DNA of 64,000 nucleotides from Planktothrix agardhii NIES-204 (lineage in GTDB: Bacteria > Cyanobacteriota > Cyanobacteriia > Cyanobacteriales > Microcoleaceae), in contig AP017991.1 in assembly GCA_003609755.1 (NCBI GenBank), forward strand, positions 3,117,501 to 3,181,500, in the 5' to 3' direction. Under the pieces are notes generated by a model that was not told the origin of the DNA, did not search any database, and was given only the letters and a program-made list of their open reading frames with translations. Below are positions 44,767 to 50,988 of the stretch, piece after piece. A program made the position numbers and the translations under genes. Position 1 is the first letter of the stretch, and every line of letters begins with the position of its first letter.

Positions 44767-44772
44767 ATTATC

Positions 44773-44849
44773 CCGTTGTTGTGCTTCAGCGCATCTTATT
44801 CGTTGTAATATAGCATCAGAAAAGAATGCGCTTGAAGCGCAACAACAGG
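44773..44849. repeat. 77-base imperfect palindrome (miniature repeat element)
   Basis: Arms ccgttgttgtgcttcagcgc (from 44773) and gcgcttgaagcgcaacaac (to about 44847) pair over about 28 bases with a short loop. It has the look of a miniature inverted-repeat element placed between genes. Confidence 0.75.
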
Positions 44850-44862
44850 ATTTCCAACCGGA

Positions 44863-44893
44863 TTTGGTTCCCTGGTATAACCAGGGAACCAAA
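44863..44893. repeat. Perfect 14-base inverted repeat upstream of the GTPase cassette
   Basis: Arms tttggttccctggt and accagggaaccaaa with a 3-base loop form a strong hairpin 95 bases before the first cassette gene. No T run follows, so it is not a classical terminator; it is probably a repeat element or an attenuating hairpin. Confidence 0.8.
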
Positions 44894-44987: not shown

Positions 44988-47291
44988 ATGAACATAACAA
45001 CAGCTAACAGATCTGCGCGAATTGCTGAAATTATTCAAAAACGCCAGCCCCTGGCCCAGAGGATCATCAGTGTAGAAGCTAATTTAAAGAATCTGCAAAA
45101 TGCAATTCAAATTTTAGAGACTGACCGAAAGCAACAACTAAACCAATGGCCAAACGAGGCTAAAATTGTCGATAAGTTAAATAAAATTCATTTTTCTCCA
45201 ATTTTATCAACAATAGAAAAAGAATTACGAGAACTACATAAGTTAAGGATTCGTTTCGCTCGTCAAACCCTCAATATCGGCGTGGTTGGACGAATGAAAC
45301 AAGGGAAAAGTACCCTACTACAAACCCTCAGTGGACTCTCTAATGATGAAATTCCAGCCCGTTCAGGAAAAGCCTGTACTGCGGTTCGTAGCACAATCTA
45401 TCATCAACCGGAAAATCTAACTGAAGCGTTAGTTACATTTCATACTGAAGAATCATTTTTACAAGAGGTAATTCTTCCCTACTTTGACCATGAAAAATTG
45501 GCTAATATTTTACCTAAAACCCCACCTCAGAGCCTAGATGATTTTCACAAAATCCAACTTCCATCACAGGATTTACTGCAAGGAAATGATGCCACCACTA
45601 AAACAATCTATAAACGTCTTTGTGATGATTATCACTTCAATTTTAACGATTATTCCCCGTTTATTGGTAAACAACCGATACGGATAACCAAAGAAAAAAT
45701 CCGAGAATATGTTGCTCAGAAAGAAGAAAATGGAAAACTCACCGATAGCAAACATTTAGCGGTTAGGAAAGTAGAAATTTCCTGCCCTTTTCCTAATGCC
45801 AATGAAATCGGAAAAATTGCATTAGTTGATTTACCAGGGTTAGGAGATTTTAAACTGGGTGATGAAAAATTAATGTTGACAACTTTAGGGGAAGAAGTTG
45901 ACGTAGTTTTATTTATTCTTAAACCCAATGAGAATGGTTCTGTGTGGACAATTAACGACACAGAACTTTATAATACAGCCAGTCAAGCTTTAAATGAATT
46001 ATCAGCCAGATCATTTTTTGTTCTTAACAATAAAGTTAATGGTGATGACAGTGGTAACTTAAAAAGCTGTCAAGATCTTAAAGCTAGTATTGATCAACAG
46101 CAAGTTAAAATTAAGGTGGTTGAATGCCTGATTGCTGACTGTCGTAATCCAGAACAAGCGAATCAAGTCTTAGATCAAGTTTTAGATTATTTAGAAACTC
46201 AAGTCATTGAATTAGATGCGCGATATGCAAAATCTAATCAAGAGCGTTTAATTCAACTTCATGAACAATTAAAAACTGAGTTAGATCATGCAAAAAATGC
46301 TCTGGGTGGAACGGGATCACATTTTGATAAATTTATGGAACGAGAGTTTGGTAAGTTATTTGGAAATAATACAAAAGGTTGGTGGAAAGACGTTATCCTT
46401 GGCTTAGAAAACTTGCGCTCAGACCTGTGGTTATATCGGGATAATCCAGATAAAAATTTAGAGGATAAGGTCACTGAAGCGATTCAAAATTGTAACAAAA
46501 ACAAAGGTGTTTTGTCCTCGGAAAATCCCTTAGAAGAAATTAATGAACGAATCAGAACCAGTGGTGCGTTGATAACCTATGCAGATTATCAAGATAAGTT
46601 GCGGGTGTTATTATCCCATCATTTTATCACCTTAGATGATGGACTAAAAAAAATGATAGAAGATACCAAAAAGCAGGTTGCTGAAGTTTTGATTGAAAAA
46701 GGTCGGTTGGGAGTCTTAACAAATGCGAGAGGATCGGAATTTATCCGAGAATTGGAAAAAATGATTGTTTTATTCGATCAGGATCAAGACTATTTTCCGC
46801 ATTTAAAACAAGGATTGAGAATTTTTATTGATTTTGAACTGTCCTATCGAGGATTAGTACAACACCGAATTCGCAAGCATTTAGATCAACTCACGAATGT
46901 TTTACCGTCGAATAATTCAACGGGACAATTACTGGATAAAGATGAAATATTGCGTCCTGATGCTTCAACTACGGCACAAGAAATTCTAACGGCACTAGAG
47001 ATTAAATATGATACTGCGGTGCATCGTATTCAACCTGCTTTGGAAGAATTGCTCTGGGAACCAAATCAAGCCGCTTATGCCATGGTTGAAGAATTTGTTG
47101 ATAATATTATCCGTCAAGAAGATGTTCAGGAAGAATGGAAAAATTTCTTGCGGGAAGTGCGATCGCAAGTTTGGCCAGAACAACTCGGTCAACTCGAAAA
47201 TAATCACGAACTTCGAGCTCATTGGCTGCAATTAGTTAAGAATGTAGAAACTACTAATCAGCCGGAATTATTGCAGTTTTTAAACGTTTAA
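44988..47291 (+). CDS. Dynamin-like large GTPase (first gene of GTPase cassette)
   Basis: This 767-residue protein has a GTPase domain with P-loop GVVGRMKQGKSTLLQTL (about residue 98), a possible switch-I threonine in GKACTAVRSTIY, G3 DLPGLGDF (about 281) and G4 NKVNGD (about 346). It is flanked by long helical regions (about 20-90 and 450-760), as in bacterial dynamin-like proteins. Such proteins bind and remodel membranes. I see no clear membrane-spanning helix, so it is probably cytoplasmic or peripheral. ATG 44988 (MNITTANRSARIAE) is chosen because the longer frame upstream runs through repeat palindromes. It starts a four-gene same-strand group. Confidence 0.82.
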   Translation: MNITTANRSARIAEIIQKRQPLAQRIISVEANLKNLQNAIQILETDRKQQLNQWPNEAKIVDKLNKIHFSPILSTIEKELRELHKLRIRFARQTLNIGVVGRMKQGKSTLLQTLSGLSNDEIPARSGKACTAVRSTIYHQPENLTEALVTFHTEESFLQEVILPYFDHEKLANILPKTPPQSLDDFHKIQLPSQDLLQGNDATTKTIYKRLCDDYHFNFNDYSPFIGKQPIRITKEKIREYVAQKEENGKLTDSKHLAVRKVEISCPFPNANEIGKIALVDLPGLGDFKLGDEKLMLTTLGEEVDVVLFILKPNENGSVWTINDTELYNTASQALNELSARSFFVLNNKVNGDDSGNLKSCQDLKASIDQQQVKIKVVECLIADCRNPEQANQVLDQVLDYLETQVIELDARYAKSNQERLIQLHEQLKTELDHAKNALGGTGSHFDKFMEREFGKLFGNNTKGWWKDVILGLENLRSDLWLYRDNPDKNLEDKVTEAIQNCNKNKGVLSSENPLEEINERIRTSGALITYADYQDKLRVLLSHHFITLDDGLKKMIEDTKKQVAEVLIEKGRLGVLTNARGSEFIRELEKMIVLFDQDQDYFPHLKQGLRIFIDFELSYRGLVQHRIRKHLDQLTNVLPSNNSTGQLLDKDEILRPDASTTAQEILTALEIKYDTAVHRIQPALEELLWEPNQAAYAMVEEFVDNIIRQEDVQEEWKNFLREVRSQVWPEQLGQLENNHELRAHWLQLVKNVETTNQPELLQFLNV

Positions 47292-47307
47292 ATAGGAGAA
47301 AATTTTC

Positions 47308-48573
47308 ATGCTAAATGACGAGTTAAAGATTATCATGGTTGCTCCTAGACAGATTGGTAAAACCAGCCTGTTAGCAGCGATGCACGAGGAATTTCATAAA
47401 ACGTTTGAACGAGCTAATCTTCAAACCTGGACTGATGATACTAGAACATTACAAGCTATAACGGAATGCAAGCGAGTTTTAAAAACGATAGATCCTAAAT
47501 TTCAAAAATCCGTAAAAAGAACTGAAATCTTTGATGATCTTTGGGAGGATGAAGGATTTGTTTTTGAGCTAGGTAGTGGGGGCAGAAAATTTATCAAACT
47601 TAGATTTACTGACCCATCAGGTGAGTATTTCAAGCTCAATGCAACACAAAAACAGAAAGAGTATATAAAGCAGCAATTATTAGCTTGTGATGCTGTAATT
47701 ATTCCCATTGATGCTACTGCATTAATGGAAAAAAAGACAGGAAGGGTCAACTATAGTGAAGTGGGAACTTGGCATGAAGAAAAAAATGATCCTGAACGGA
47801 TCACAACCCTGTTAAAAGATGCCTATGCAGGTTTGACCGTTCCCAGATTAGTCATTTTAGCTCCTGTTAAATGCGAAACCTACATGAGAACTTCTCAAGA
47901 TGCTGAAAACTTACTTCAGCACGTTCAAATCGGATATCAAAAACTGTTAAATTTTTTAAAATCCGATGGGTTATTTGGTCAAGTTGCAGTTCTGGTAACA
48001 CCTGTTCAGACCGTTGGAAATGTTGTTTTTGCTTACCATAAAACTGGTGATGATGGTTTCATAAAATTTGAATACAATAAAACGGAGATTAAAGCTCCCT
48101 ATGCGCCTAAAGATGGAGATCAACCCCTGAGATATGTTTTACGGTTTTTGCTAAATCTTTCTAATGAGGCAAAAAAACGTCAACTAGAGCAAGATCAAAA
48201 GGAATTATCTGAGCTTGAAAAAAGTCTATCTACAGAAAAAGATAAACTTGATGCAGCTAAACAGAAATTTGCTCAAAGAGAGAAAGCATTTATAGAACGA
48301 AAGCAAACGTGGTTTCCGTTTAGATTTGTAGCCAACTTATTTGATGATGCGTACACACCTTATAAAGAAGCCAAAGAAAATGTCAAATCCACTGAAAAAA
48401 CGGTTCACGAAACTCAAACTAAAGTTAAAAACTCTGAAATAAAAGTTCAAGCAACACAGGAGGAAATTGATATTTTTAACAATGCTATCTTTTCTTTTGC
48501 CATTGGCTGTAAAAATAGTGATGGTTTTGCTATTTTGCAAGGTGCTAAATGGTTGCAAATTCCCCATAATTAA
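47308..48573 (+). CDS. P-loop GTPase-like protein with C-terminal coiled coil
   Basis: This 421-residue protein starts MLNDELKIIMVAPRQIGKTS, a P-loop in which the first glycine is alanine (APRQIGKTS). A D-x-x-G motif follows in FTDPSGEYFKL, and hydrophobic strands CDAVIIPIDATAL and VPRLVILAPVKCE suggest the rest of a TRAFAC-like fold. The phrase DPSGE recalls the double-GTPase families reported in bacterial conflict systems, but that link is tentative. Residues about 290-390 form a coiled coil (EKSLSTEKDKLDAAKQKF). It begins 17 bases after the dynamin-like gene and has an AGGAG site, so the pair is co-transcribed. Confidence 0.72.
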   Translation: MLNDELKIIMVAPRQIGKTSLLAAMHEEFHKTFERANLQTWTDDTRTLQAITECKRVLKTIDPKFQKSVKRTEIFDDLWEDEGFVFELGSGGRKFIKLRFTDPSGEYFKLNATQKQKEYIKQQLLACDAVIIPIDATALMEKKTGRVNYSEVGTWHEEKNDPERITTLLKDAYAGLTVPRLVILAPVKCETYMRTSQDAENLLQHVQIGYQKLLNFLKSDGLFGQVAVLVTPVQTVGNVVFAYHKTGDDGFIKFEYNKTEIKAPYAPKDGDQPLRYVLRFLLNLSNEAKKRQLEQDQKELSELEKSLSTEKDKLDAAKQKFAQREKAFIERKQTWFPFRFVANLFDDAYTPYKEAKENVKSTEKTVHETQTKVKNSEIKVQATQEEIDIFNNAIFSFAIGCKNSDGFAILQGAKWLQIPHN

Positions 48574-48592
48574 TATACAAGGAGATTGAAAC

Positions 48593-49594
48593 ATGAAAGA
48601 GCTAGAGGTTTATGTGAGAAGTTATGCCCTAGGTAACACTGGAATTCATTGGCGCAAGATTGAAAATATCCAGTCTATCTCAGAATCTCCTAATATGCTT
48701 AAAGAAAGGTTGGTTAAGAAAAAAACAGGAGATTCAGGAACAATTGGATATTTGATAAATTATCAAAATCCTTCGCTTGTTCTCATGCGTTATTCTCAAC
48801 AATTATTATTCATGGTTGGAGGAATTGAGTCTGTAAAAAAACAAACTAACAAATTTGGAAGTACAATAGAAACCGAAGTATATAATGCAGTTGTATGGGT
48901 TGTTAATCCTGATGAAAGTGAAACTTTTTCACCTGAAAACGAATTAAGGTTACGACATCTAGCAGCACGCGCATTATTAAGCTTTGTAGGTAAAGATCCA
49001 GAGTTTATTAATACAATCAATGAGGCAATTAATTTTAAAGGATTAGAGGAATTTGAGGTTAATCTCAATAAAATCAATCAATTGACTGAAAATTCAGCAG
49101 ATAAGCTCAAACAATTACTTTCAAATTTAGATGAAGCTGAAGCTGATCAACAAATTTGGTACAAAAAAGTTGAAAAAATAGGTAATGAGCAAGAAATTAT
49201 TAGTTTGGCTGAGAAAATCATCAACACCGGATTACCGGAAGATGATTTAGCAATTTTAATCAGTAAGGGTGATGAGAATGCAGTCTCGGTTTTATCTATT
49301 GATCTTAAGCCTGAAATATCTGATATTAAGATTGAAACATCTACGGATAATCAAGCTCAAGAAGTGACTGAACAGACCGAAAATATTGTTGAAAATAAGG
49401 AGGTTGTTGAAGGCACGCTGGGAAAGAAACGAAAACAACTCCTCCTGTTAATAATACTGATAGTCAGTCTCCTGGTGGTCATTCTGTTTTCCTTGAAAAC
49501 AATGGAAAATCAGAAAGAGAAGCCCGAGAAAATCCCAGTACCACAGACGTTGATAAATCCACAGTCACTGACCTTAACCAACACAAAGATATGA
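48593..49594 (+). CDS. Unknown protein with one C-terminal membrane helix (GTPase cassette)
   Basis: I do not recognise this 333-residue protein. The N-terminal 130 residues look globular (ELEVYVRSYALGNTGIHWRK, SLVLMRYSQQLLFMVGGIES, LRLRHLAARALLSFVGKD). A helical middle and an acidic linker (about 215-275) follow, then KKRK and a single hydrophobic helix (LLLLIILIVSLLVVILF, about 282-299) and a short tail. This predicts a tail-anchored protein with its bulk in the cytoplasm. It has a strong AAGGAG site, starts 19 bases after the previous gene, and its stop overlaps the next start (ATGA). The small last gene's frame is also open upstream across the whole membrane-helix region. Confidence 0.72.
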   Translation: MKELEVYVRSYALGNTGIHWRKIENIQSISESPNMLKERLVKKKTGDSGTIGYLINYQNPSLVLMRYSQQLLFMVGGIESVKKQTNKFGSTIETEVYNAVVWVVNPDESETFSPENELRLRHLAARALLSFVGKDPEFINTINEAINFKGLEEFEVNLNKINQLTENSADKLKQLLSNLDEAEADQQIWYKKVEKIGNEQEIISLAEKIINTGLPEDDLAILISKGDENAVSVLSIDLKPEISDIKIETSTDNQAQEVTEQTENIVENKEVVEGTLGKKRKQLLLLIILIVSLLVVILFSLKTMENQKEKPEKIPVPQTLINPQSLTLTNTKI

Positions 49595-49887
49595 ACGATC
49601 AAAATAAAGAATGGCTAAAATATATTCGTGATTTAGTCGATAATCCCTGGGTTCCTATAAAAGATGAATTACGTCGTTGGCTAAAAAAACGATTGATTGT
49701 TGAAGACAAATTATCAGAAAAACAGAAAAAAGACTTGTTTGAAGTTGCTGATTTTTTAATTCTCGATAACGAATTAAAAAATCAGAAAAAAAAACAGTTA
49801 ACTCCTAAAGATAATCAGTTATTAGACTCAGTTGAAACAATTCTGAATGACTGTTTAAAAAGGTTGAAGGAAATTAAAGGTGAATAA
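49591..49887 (+). CDS. Small charged protein, last gene of the GTPase cassette
   Basis: This 98-residue protein (MNDQNKEWLKYIRDLVDNPW) is highly charged and mainly helical (ELRRWLKKRLIVEDKLSEKQ), without cysteines or membrane segments. I know no family for it. Its ATG overlaps the previous stop as ATGA, so translation is coupled. Its frame continues open upstream to 49411, reading a hydrophilic segment (NNGKSEREARENPSTTDVDK), so a longer product or a fusion by frameshift is conceivable. Confidence 0.6.
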   Translation: MNDQNKEWLKYIRDLVDNPWVPIKDELRRWLKKRLIVEDKLSEKQKKDLFEVADFLILDNELKNQKKKQLTPKDNQLLDSVETILNDCLKRLKEIKGE

Positions 49888-49964
49888 TCTTTTATCCTGA
49901 TCAAAAATAAATCGTGGTAATCTCTTTAGGGCTTCAATCCATCCTAGTTACTAATCTGGGGATT

Positions 49965-49980
49965 AAGCCCTGAAGGGCTT
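49965..49980. repeat. AAGCCCT..AGGGCTT hairpin
   Basis: A perfect 7-base inverted repeat with a 2-base loop lies between the convergent GTPase cassette and galE. The same core (agccctgaagggct) recurs at 62120-62133. It could serve as a weak terminator or be an interspersed repeat. Confidence 0.6.
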
Positions 49981-49989
49981 ACTACGGGG

Positions 49990-50988
49990 TTAGGTGTGTC
50001 GTTTTTGATGCCAATTCCAAGCATGGGTGATAATATTTTGAAGATCGGGATATTCAGGATTCCAACCTAATATTGTTCGGGCTTTTTCTCCACTTCCAAC
50101 TAAACTTGGTGGATCTCCGGGGCGGCGATCGCATTCAATCGCTTTAATCTCTTTTCCCGTAATTTCTCTAGCGGTTTCTATCACCTCTTTAACGGAAAAT
50201 CCTTTCCCATTTCCTAAATTAAAAACATCCGTTTTTCCACTATTTAATAAATATTCTAACCCTAAAATATGGGCGGTTGCTAAGTCCGTAACGTGAATAT
50301 AATCTCTAATACAAGTACCATCGGGTGTGGGATAATCGGTTCCAAAAATAGAAATAGAATCTCGTTTTCCTAATGCTGCTAATAAAATTAAAGGAATTAA
50401 ATGGGTTTCGGGATTATGATCTTCCCCTAATAACCCTTCTGGGTCGGCTCCGGCGGCATTAAAATAACGGAAACGTACCGATTTAAAATCATAGGCGACA
50501 TCAAAATCCGATAAAATTCTTTCTACCATTAATTTAGTCGCCCCGTAGGGATTAATCGGATTTTGGGGATGTTCTTCAGGAATGGGAACAATTTCAGGAA
50601 CCCCATAAGTGGCGCAGGTTGAGGAAAATACAAACTTATTAATTCCCGCCTCTTTCATTGCTTCCAATAACGTTAAAGTTCCGACCACATTATTGCGATA
50701 ATATTTATCAGGATTAGTAACAGATTCCCCCACATAAGCATAAGCAGAAAAGTGCATCACCGCATCAATTTTGCGACTAGAAAATAACTTATCAAGCAAC
50801 GGACGATCATTAGTATCTCCAATAATTAATTCGGTTTTTAAGACCGTTTCCACTAAGTCTTGATGTCCATAAACTAAATTATCGAGAATAATCACATCAT
50901 AACCCGAACGTTGTAGCGCCAGGACAGCATGGGAACCAATATAACCCGCTCCTCCAGTAACTAAAATAGTAGTTTTATCTTCCGACAT
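49990..50988 (-). CDS. galE: UDP-glucose 4-epimerase
   Basis: This 332-residue enzyme interconverts UDP-glucose and UDP-galactose with bound NAD+. The cofactor loop is LVTGGAGYIGSHAVLAL, the serine-threonine region FVFSSTCATYGVP, and the catalytic Tyr-Lys pair NPYGATKLMVERIL. The substrate region RYFNAAGADPEGLLGEDHNP is typical. ATG 50988 (MSEDKTTILVTGG) is chosen over a TTG nine codons upstream because GGAG lies 10 bases before it. It supplies UDP-galactose for glycan synthesis and may be co-transcribed with the small gene 38 bases upstream. Confidence 0.95.
   Translation of the reverse strand: MSEDKTTILVTGGAGYIGSHAVLALQRSGYDVIILDNLVYGHQDLVETVLKTELIIGDTNDRPLLDKLFSSRKIDAVMHFSAYAYVGESVTNPDKYYRNNVVGTLTLLEAMKEAGINKFVFSSTCATYGVPEIVPIPEEHPQNPINPYGATKLMVERILSDFDVAYDFKSVRFRYFNAAGADPEGLLGEDHNPETHLIPLILLAALGKRDSISIFGTDYPTPDGTCIRDYIHVTDLATAHILGLEYLLNSGKTDVFNLGNGKGFSVKEVIETAREITGKEIKAIECDRRPGDPPSLVGSGEKARTILGWNPEYPDLQNIITHAWNWHQKRHT

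Follow-up and report, generated by a model that had tools for sequence, protein, structure and literature searches.

In the filamentous cyanobacterium Planktothrix agardhii NIES-204 (near relative, P. rubescens PCC 7821), a stretch of 64,000 nucleotides (nt), hereafter the window (G000:C1:3117501-3181500), carries a cassette in which the genes for a dynamin-like large GTPase (Dyn, 767 amino acids (aa), 44988..47291), a GTPase of the DO-GTPase2 family (DOG2, 421 aa, 47308..48573) and a third core protein with a C-terminal membrane anchor (p333, 333 aa, 48593..49594) follow one another on the plus strand. Comparison of gene order at related loci shows Dyn, DOG2 and p333 to be conserved together on one strand in various cyanobacteria and in at least one soil bacterium, an actinobacterial relative.

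Results

Conservation was assessed at 36 distinct DOG2 loci, comprising 28 places in 25 of 386 cyanobacterial genomes, one locus from a genus search and seven on named contigs or plasmids (three fragment rows of the same genes were dropped and doubly fetched loci counted once). p333 lies downstream of DOG2 on the same strand at all 36 loci and Dyn lies upstream, again on the same strand, at 35, a linkage of the trio (35 to 36 of 36 loci) that is far beyond chance. The linked cassette of dynamin, GTPase and membrane partner proposed in an original prediction, which had been made from the DNA letters of the window, is thereby upheld, the trio staying together in relatives rather than being scattered. 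The exception, L059 (G000:C1:467185-467979), is a third copy in the window's own genome, a DOG2-p333 pair without Dyn, and the same genome holds a second complete trio (L058, G000:C1:3856518-3859551). Genes are broken at L084, where a transposase splits p333, and at L079, where DOG2 and p333 are in pieces, and both loci were excluded from phylogenetic trees. The trees of DOG2 and of p333 unite the rows with a long DOG2 (11 of 32) in a single clade (100/100 and 100/99), and the tree of Dyn splits them; swapping of Dyn between cassettes was considered on account of this split and dropped, as the approximately unbiased test does not reject a single clade (p 0.343). In Brasilonema (L019, 9461-10777), an RRXRR-HNH gene, which we take to be IscB-like, stands between DOG2 and p333.

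The gene behind p333 in the window encodes a small charged protein (p98, 98 aa, 49591..49887, plus strand), the start of which overlaps the end of p333 by 4 bases. All four open reading frames (ORFs) have the positions and the single strand that had been predicted, with spacings of 16, 19 and -4 bases, the second of which had been given as 18. When p98 was compared with nine other fourth genes, with E-values computed for this set of ten sequences, a clear match was found in P. rubescens (2e-26) and weak ones at L065 (2e-6) and at L018 and L019 (2-3e-4). The small proteins after p333 in the long-DOG2 clade form separate sets, of which the Nostocales ones match each other, and the next gene was compared in only some of the short-DOG2 loci. 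On these comparisons, we regard p98 as a variable accessory gene outside the conserved core, and the four-gene unit originally envisaged gives way to a core of three genes with a varying fourth.

Dyn matches the Pfam family Dynamin_N (PF00350) with an E-value of 1.8e-8 and 35 bits (curated cut-off 27) and has the motifs G1 (GRMKQGKST), G2 (CTA) and G3 (DLPGLGD), all three conserved among its relatives; by this domain and these motifs, it is classed as a member of the dynamin superfamily. Its reading frame is open from 44826, and the relatives favour a start at 44988. Identity to the 21 other alignment rows is 36-46% for 19 of them, 96% for P. rubescens and 32% for Nonomuraea. Hydropathy gave no transmembrane (TM) segment in 33 of 34 Dyn rows, the window's Dyn included, the exception being a fusion protein (L061). 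A Dyn profile found 32 places above 300 bits in 30 of the 386 cyanobacterial genomes, 27 of which adjoin DOG2; among the other five, L175 adjoins another DO-GTPase, L173 consists of two pieces, L174 and L177 are at the ends of their contigs, and behind L176 comes a LysM protein. Dynamins of the Dyn family also occur on Calothrix plasmids (L087, 7872-10316; L088, 7929-10304); they lie close to haemagglutinin-like or outer-membrane (D15) genes, and those stretches yielded no DO-GTPase.

The second gene, originally left without a family, can be placed: DOG2 matches Pfam DO-GTPase2 (PF19993) with an E-value of 3.5e-7 and 30.6 bits (curated cut-off 27), all 24 DOG2 family members examined match PF19993 (E up to 0.01), and the three DOG2 copies of the window's genome are all above its cut-off. 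By these profile matches, DOG2 belongs to the DO-GTPase2 family. Its motifs are a Walker A (APRQIGKT), a G3 (DPSGE) and a G4-like PVKCE, and a C-terminal coiled-coil-like insert is typical of its clade. The ordinary form of Walker A is [AG]x4GK[ST], which APRQIGKTS fits, and sister loci show variants such as GPSGVGKTS and ALRGMGKTS, so that the motif is not abnormal, though it had been called altered. The residue after the G of DPSGE is E in 16 of 35 rows (the 36th is gapped); the remaining rows mostly have G, and some D, R or K. According to excerpts of Kaur 2020 (PMC7159879), the Walker B motif of DO-GTPases has a conserved glutamate.

p333 is laid out as an N-terminal alpha/beta domain, a variable linker, one TM segment at residues about 283-301 and a short C-tail, which is predicted to lie outside the cytoplasm. 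A C-terminal TM segment is present in 32 of the 37 p333-family proteins examined, the window's included, which bears out the tail anchor of the original prediction, and K/R is richer before the segment than after it in 23 of these 32. Searches of Pfam and NCBIfam gave p333 and p98 only matches far below curated cut-offs, and PADLOC gave none (E up to 10). The third and fourth proteins, described earlier as unmatched, thus have no family above these cut-offs, and for p333 a tentative structural likeness can be added: the AlphaFold2 model of the p333 N-domain, which follows the strand-helix order of longin domains, is weakly longin-like. Sequence searches of solved structures returned weak, short matches only.

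By its distribution, the cassette is accessory and mobile. Besides its presence in 25 of 386 cyanobacterial genomes, a DOG2 relative was found in 4 of 10 Planktothrix genomes and the window's own version in 2 of 10. Plasmids of Nostoc carneum and Aulosira laxa carry copies, that of A. laxa being typed as conjugative, and the Nonomuraea match sits on an 11.9-Mb record labelled plasmid. Searches of phage records and viral contigs, with one protein query each, returned no relatives. Inverted-repeat analysis found the predicted palindromes upstream and hairpin downstream, none of them assigned to a strand: an imperfect inverted repeat at 44770..44851 (19-nt arms, 44770-44788/44833-44851), a perfect palindrome at 44863..44893 (14-nt arms, 44863-44876/44880-44893) and an inverted repeat behind p98 at 49913..49986 (22-nt arms, 82% complementary, 49913-49934/49965-49986). 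Eight other Planktothrix genomes align with the window only from 49964-49995 rightwards, about at the downstream inverted repeat; since the sugar-gene region is different as well, they do not define a left border for the empty site. The contigs of L116 and L117 start about 0.2 kb and about 1.2 kb to the left of the match.

In P. rubescens (L013, 2160-5570), an insertion just upstream of the cassette carries two genes, one for an N6/N4 DNA methylase and one of 368 aa to which Pfam gave no match at 0.01. It is bordered by a duplication of the cassette 5' end over 508 bp (97.8%), and the duplicated stretch starts within the upstream palindrome; the arrangement recalls restriction-modification insertions with long target duplication, as excerpts of the literature describe them. 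Between the window and P. rubescens, the ratio of nonsynonymous to synonymous change (dN/dS) climbs along the operon from Dyn (0.29) through DOG2 (0.34) and p333 (0.62) to p98 (0.79), with dS values of 0.06, 0.26, 0.25 and 0.32, respectively. In the flanks, dN/dS is 0.14 for the upstream glycosyltransferase (dS 0.22) and 0-0.25 for five downstream genes (dS 0.01-0.09), and it exceeds 1 in none of the genes compared. Because dS is high on both sides of Dyn, the pattern suggests that pieces have been exchanged with alleles that are more distant.

HEPN and CHAT are well known from conflict systems, and HEPN, CHAT, AAA_35 or WD40 modules are fused or adjacent to the trio at 4 of the 36 loci, among neighbours that were not all named. 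In another Planktothrix (L061, 9279-13181), AAA_35, HEPN_Swt1 and Dyn are fused in a single open frame of 1300 aa, flanked upstream by an AAA_35 gene and downstream by a gene with AAA matches below cut-off. Directly behind p333 at L078 stands an AAA_35 gene that has a below-cut-off match to vWA, in Nonomuraea (L055) the stop of a TPR-CHAT gene overlaps the start of Dyn as ATGA, and at L069 WD40 repeats lie C-terminal to the TM segment of p333. The predicted likeness to GTPase-centred conflict systems finds support in such modules at a few loci, together with the conserved linkage, the DO-GTPase2 membership and the plasmid copies.

Discussion

We give about even chances to the reading that, in the cassette, a GTPase switch anchored at the membrane controls a dynamin as its effector, as part of an anti-phage or membrane-damage response. 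p333 would be anchored in the membrane, its N-terminal domain facing the cytoplasm and its variable tail lying on the other side, and the N-domain, longin-like in the model, would bind and regulate the DO-GTPase as longin/roadblock domains do with small GTPases. A membrane trigger, such as the entry of a phage, its lysis proteins or damage of another kind, would change the state of the DO-GTPase, upon which Dyn would assemble on the membrane and either hold it together, delaying lysis as Bacillus DynA is reported to do, or remodel it as an abortive response. Further effector modules (HEPN, CHAT) are joined to the trio or precede it in some lineages. The membrane-sensing or abortive-response role of the original prediction is likewise inferred, and the test of the neighbourhoods for a defence island was negative.

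Several known systems share features with the cassette. The LeoA/LeoBC pair, which we take to be the one named Eleos, can be set beside it first. As in the cassette, excerpts of the LeoABC paper (PMC4159319) have an operon that combines a dynamin-like GTPase with another GTPase, and Dyn matches the PADLOC LeoBC model (9.3e-7, 26.3 bits), the best stretch covering only model positions 17-98 of 601. However, Eleos comprises paired dynamins, LeoA as well as LeoBC; the second GTPase of the cassette is not a dynamin, an anchored protein is added, and PADLOC gave no match to LeoA and no Leo match in DOG2, p333 or p98. The Bacillus dynamin DynA, for which an anti-phage role is reported in excerpts of PMC8844932, is said to delay lysis by clusters at the membrane; there it is described without a DO-GTPase or an anchored partner, whereas the cassette is known from its genes alone. 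With its modelled longin-order N-domain, p333 may also pair with a GTPase in the way partial accounts give for longin/roadblock-regulated GTPases (FLCN complexes, TRAPP and bacterial MglA-MglB). In open-licence literature, the scope leaving subscription papers mostly outside, no paper was found to join 'DO-GTPase' and 'dynamin'; excerpts of PMC8998981, on alignment methods, contain 'dynamin' once and 'double-GTPase' once.

Two observations weigh against a defence role and fit instead a trio that, under abiotic stress, repairs or remodels the plasma membrane or the thylakoids and in which the DO-GTPase and p333 serve as positioning factors. Known defence families are no commoner beside the cassettes than at control places: at 1e-20, PADLOC gave 36 families among 121 cassette-neighbour proteins and 49 among 112 control proteins, with at most 2 and 3 members per family, respectively. 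Neighbours were the two nearest proteins of at least 100 aa on each side, at 29 of the 36 loci, plus genes inside, and controls were 20 places hand-picked at round coordinates in 17 genomes, with families rather than proteins being counted. Enrichment in defence islands is absent and is therefore not used as support. Further, no effector-type module was seen at the other 32 of the 36 loci, where neighbours were not all named. Excerpts of PMC10104851 also present the cyanobacterial dynamin-like SynDLP as a membrane-remodelling protein. Yet for a housekeeping function, it would be unusual to find such patchiness within a genus (4 of 10 genomes) and copies on plasmids, two trios and one Dyn-less pair in one genome, or HEPN or CHAT partners, and we regard membrane maintenance as rather unlikely.

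Full membership in the DO-GTPase/GAP1 System 2 of Kaur 2020, with p333 as a shrunken GAP1-N and Dyn as an extra effector, appears quite improbable. Excerpts of that work (PMC7159879) define System 2 by DO-GTPases with GAP1 plus GASH or FNIII, describe GAP1 as having three globular domains, its N2 type often being fused to C-terminal TM segments, and report two paralogous DO-GTPases in 38% of published systems, so that these are not required. The cassette shares a GTPase of the DO-GTPase family (the PF19993 match of DOG2), a component anchored in the membrane, a core that stays constant as its companions vary, and mobility. It differs in holding a dynamin beside a single DO-GTPase, in having a protein of ~333 aa in place of a long GAP1, and in occurring in cyanobacteria, which the excerpts call nearly devoid of System 2; dynamin is not mentioned in the main text as excerpted, and HEPN or CHAT were not met there as named effectors of GTPase systems. 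The p333 N-domain resembles the N-domain of GAP1-like proteins from cyanobacterial two-DO-GTPase operons in hhalign (23.2 local/17.1 global, against 16.7/6.6 for the best of 38 controls; 21.8 for the untrimmed set, against 17.0 for the best of 200 column shuffles). However, the HH probability of this comparison is only 12%, the full-family comparison is empty (probability 0.1), and the label 'GAP1-like' rests on gene order and size because no Pfam GAP1 match was found in these proteins (members fully listed; 25 of 45 families listed). Pfam also gave no match to GAP1, GASH or FNIII in the four window proteins (E up to 10), and no GAP1 is among the 25 of 111 Pfam families listed for 27 p333 relatives. 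Because GAP1 with GASH or FNIII was not found, the cassette is not assigned to System 2, and it may nevertheless work like it.

A sister arrangement of Dyn, a DO-GTPase, a protein of about 1000 aa and one of about 500 aa, which speaks for System 2 membership, occurs at L089 (8004-15910, Stanieria plasmid pSTA7437.02) and L175 (8061-16411), with DO-GTPase scores of 24.8 bits (just below the cut-off of 27) and 47.7 bits, and may form a bridge between the two kinds. On the L089 plasmid, some 3 kb off and on the opposite strand, there is an EAD4-NB-ARC gene. Five further cyanobacterial plasmids (L090, L179-L182) have an operon of DO-GTPase-like genes, only one of which is above the Pfam cut-off at L090, with a protein of about 615-812 aa that has no Pfam GAP1 match and relatives in 20 of the 386 genomes; an annotated vWA protein is present in four of the five, and an ARC6/PARC6-family gene follows in three. 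A selfish or plasmid-maintenance toxin-antitoxin module with p98 as antidote, to which the plasmid copies and the overlapping, fastest-changing p98 gene might point, is highly improbable, as only four of the nine other fourth genes match p98 (E <0.001), one of them clearly, while the trio persists, and as the DOG2-p333 pair of L059 stands without Dyn.

With p333, the cassette brings forward a conserved, usually anchored family unmatched in Pfam, NCBIfam and PADLOC (for the 27 relatives, among the Pfam families listed). DO-GTPase systems have been predicted from genomes and called nearly absent from cyanobacteria, and the cassette is a compact cyanobacterial case tied to a dynamin, which may act as a mobile stress or anti-virus device; its three-gene size allows whole transfer to a laboratory strain and, with it, a direct test of DO-GTPase function. 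It is a distinctly unlikely extension of the anchored-switch reading that a longin-type anchored regulator, a DO-GTPase switch and a dynamin make up one bacterial signalling line, serving as a mobile immune device in cyanobacteria. If true, the logic of eukaryotic GTPase-controlled membrane remodelling, with a longin platform, a small switch GTPase and a large dynamin, would be found in bacteria.

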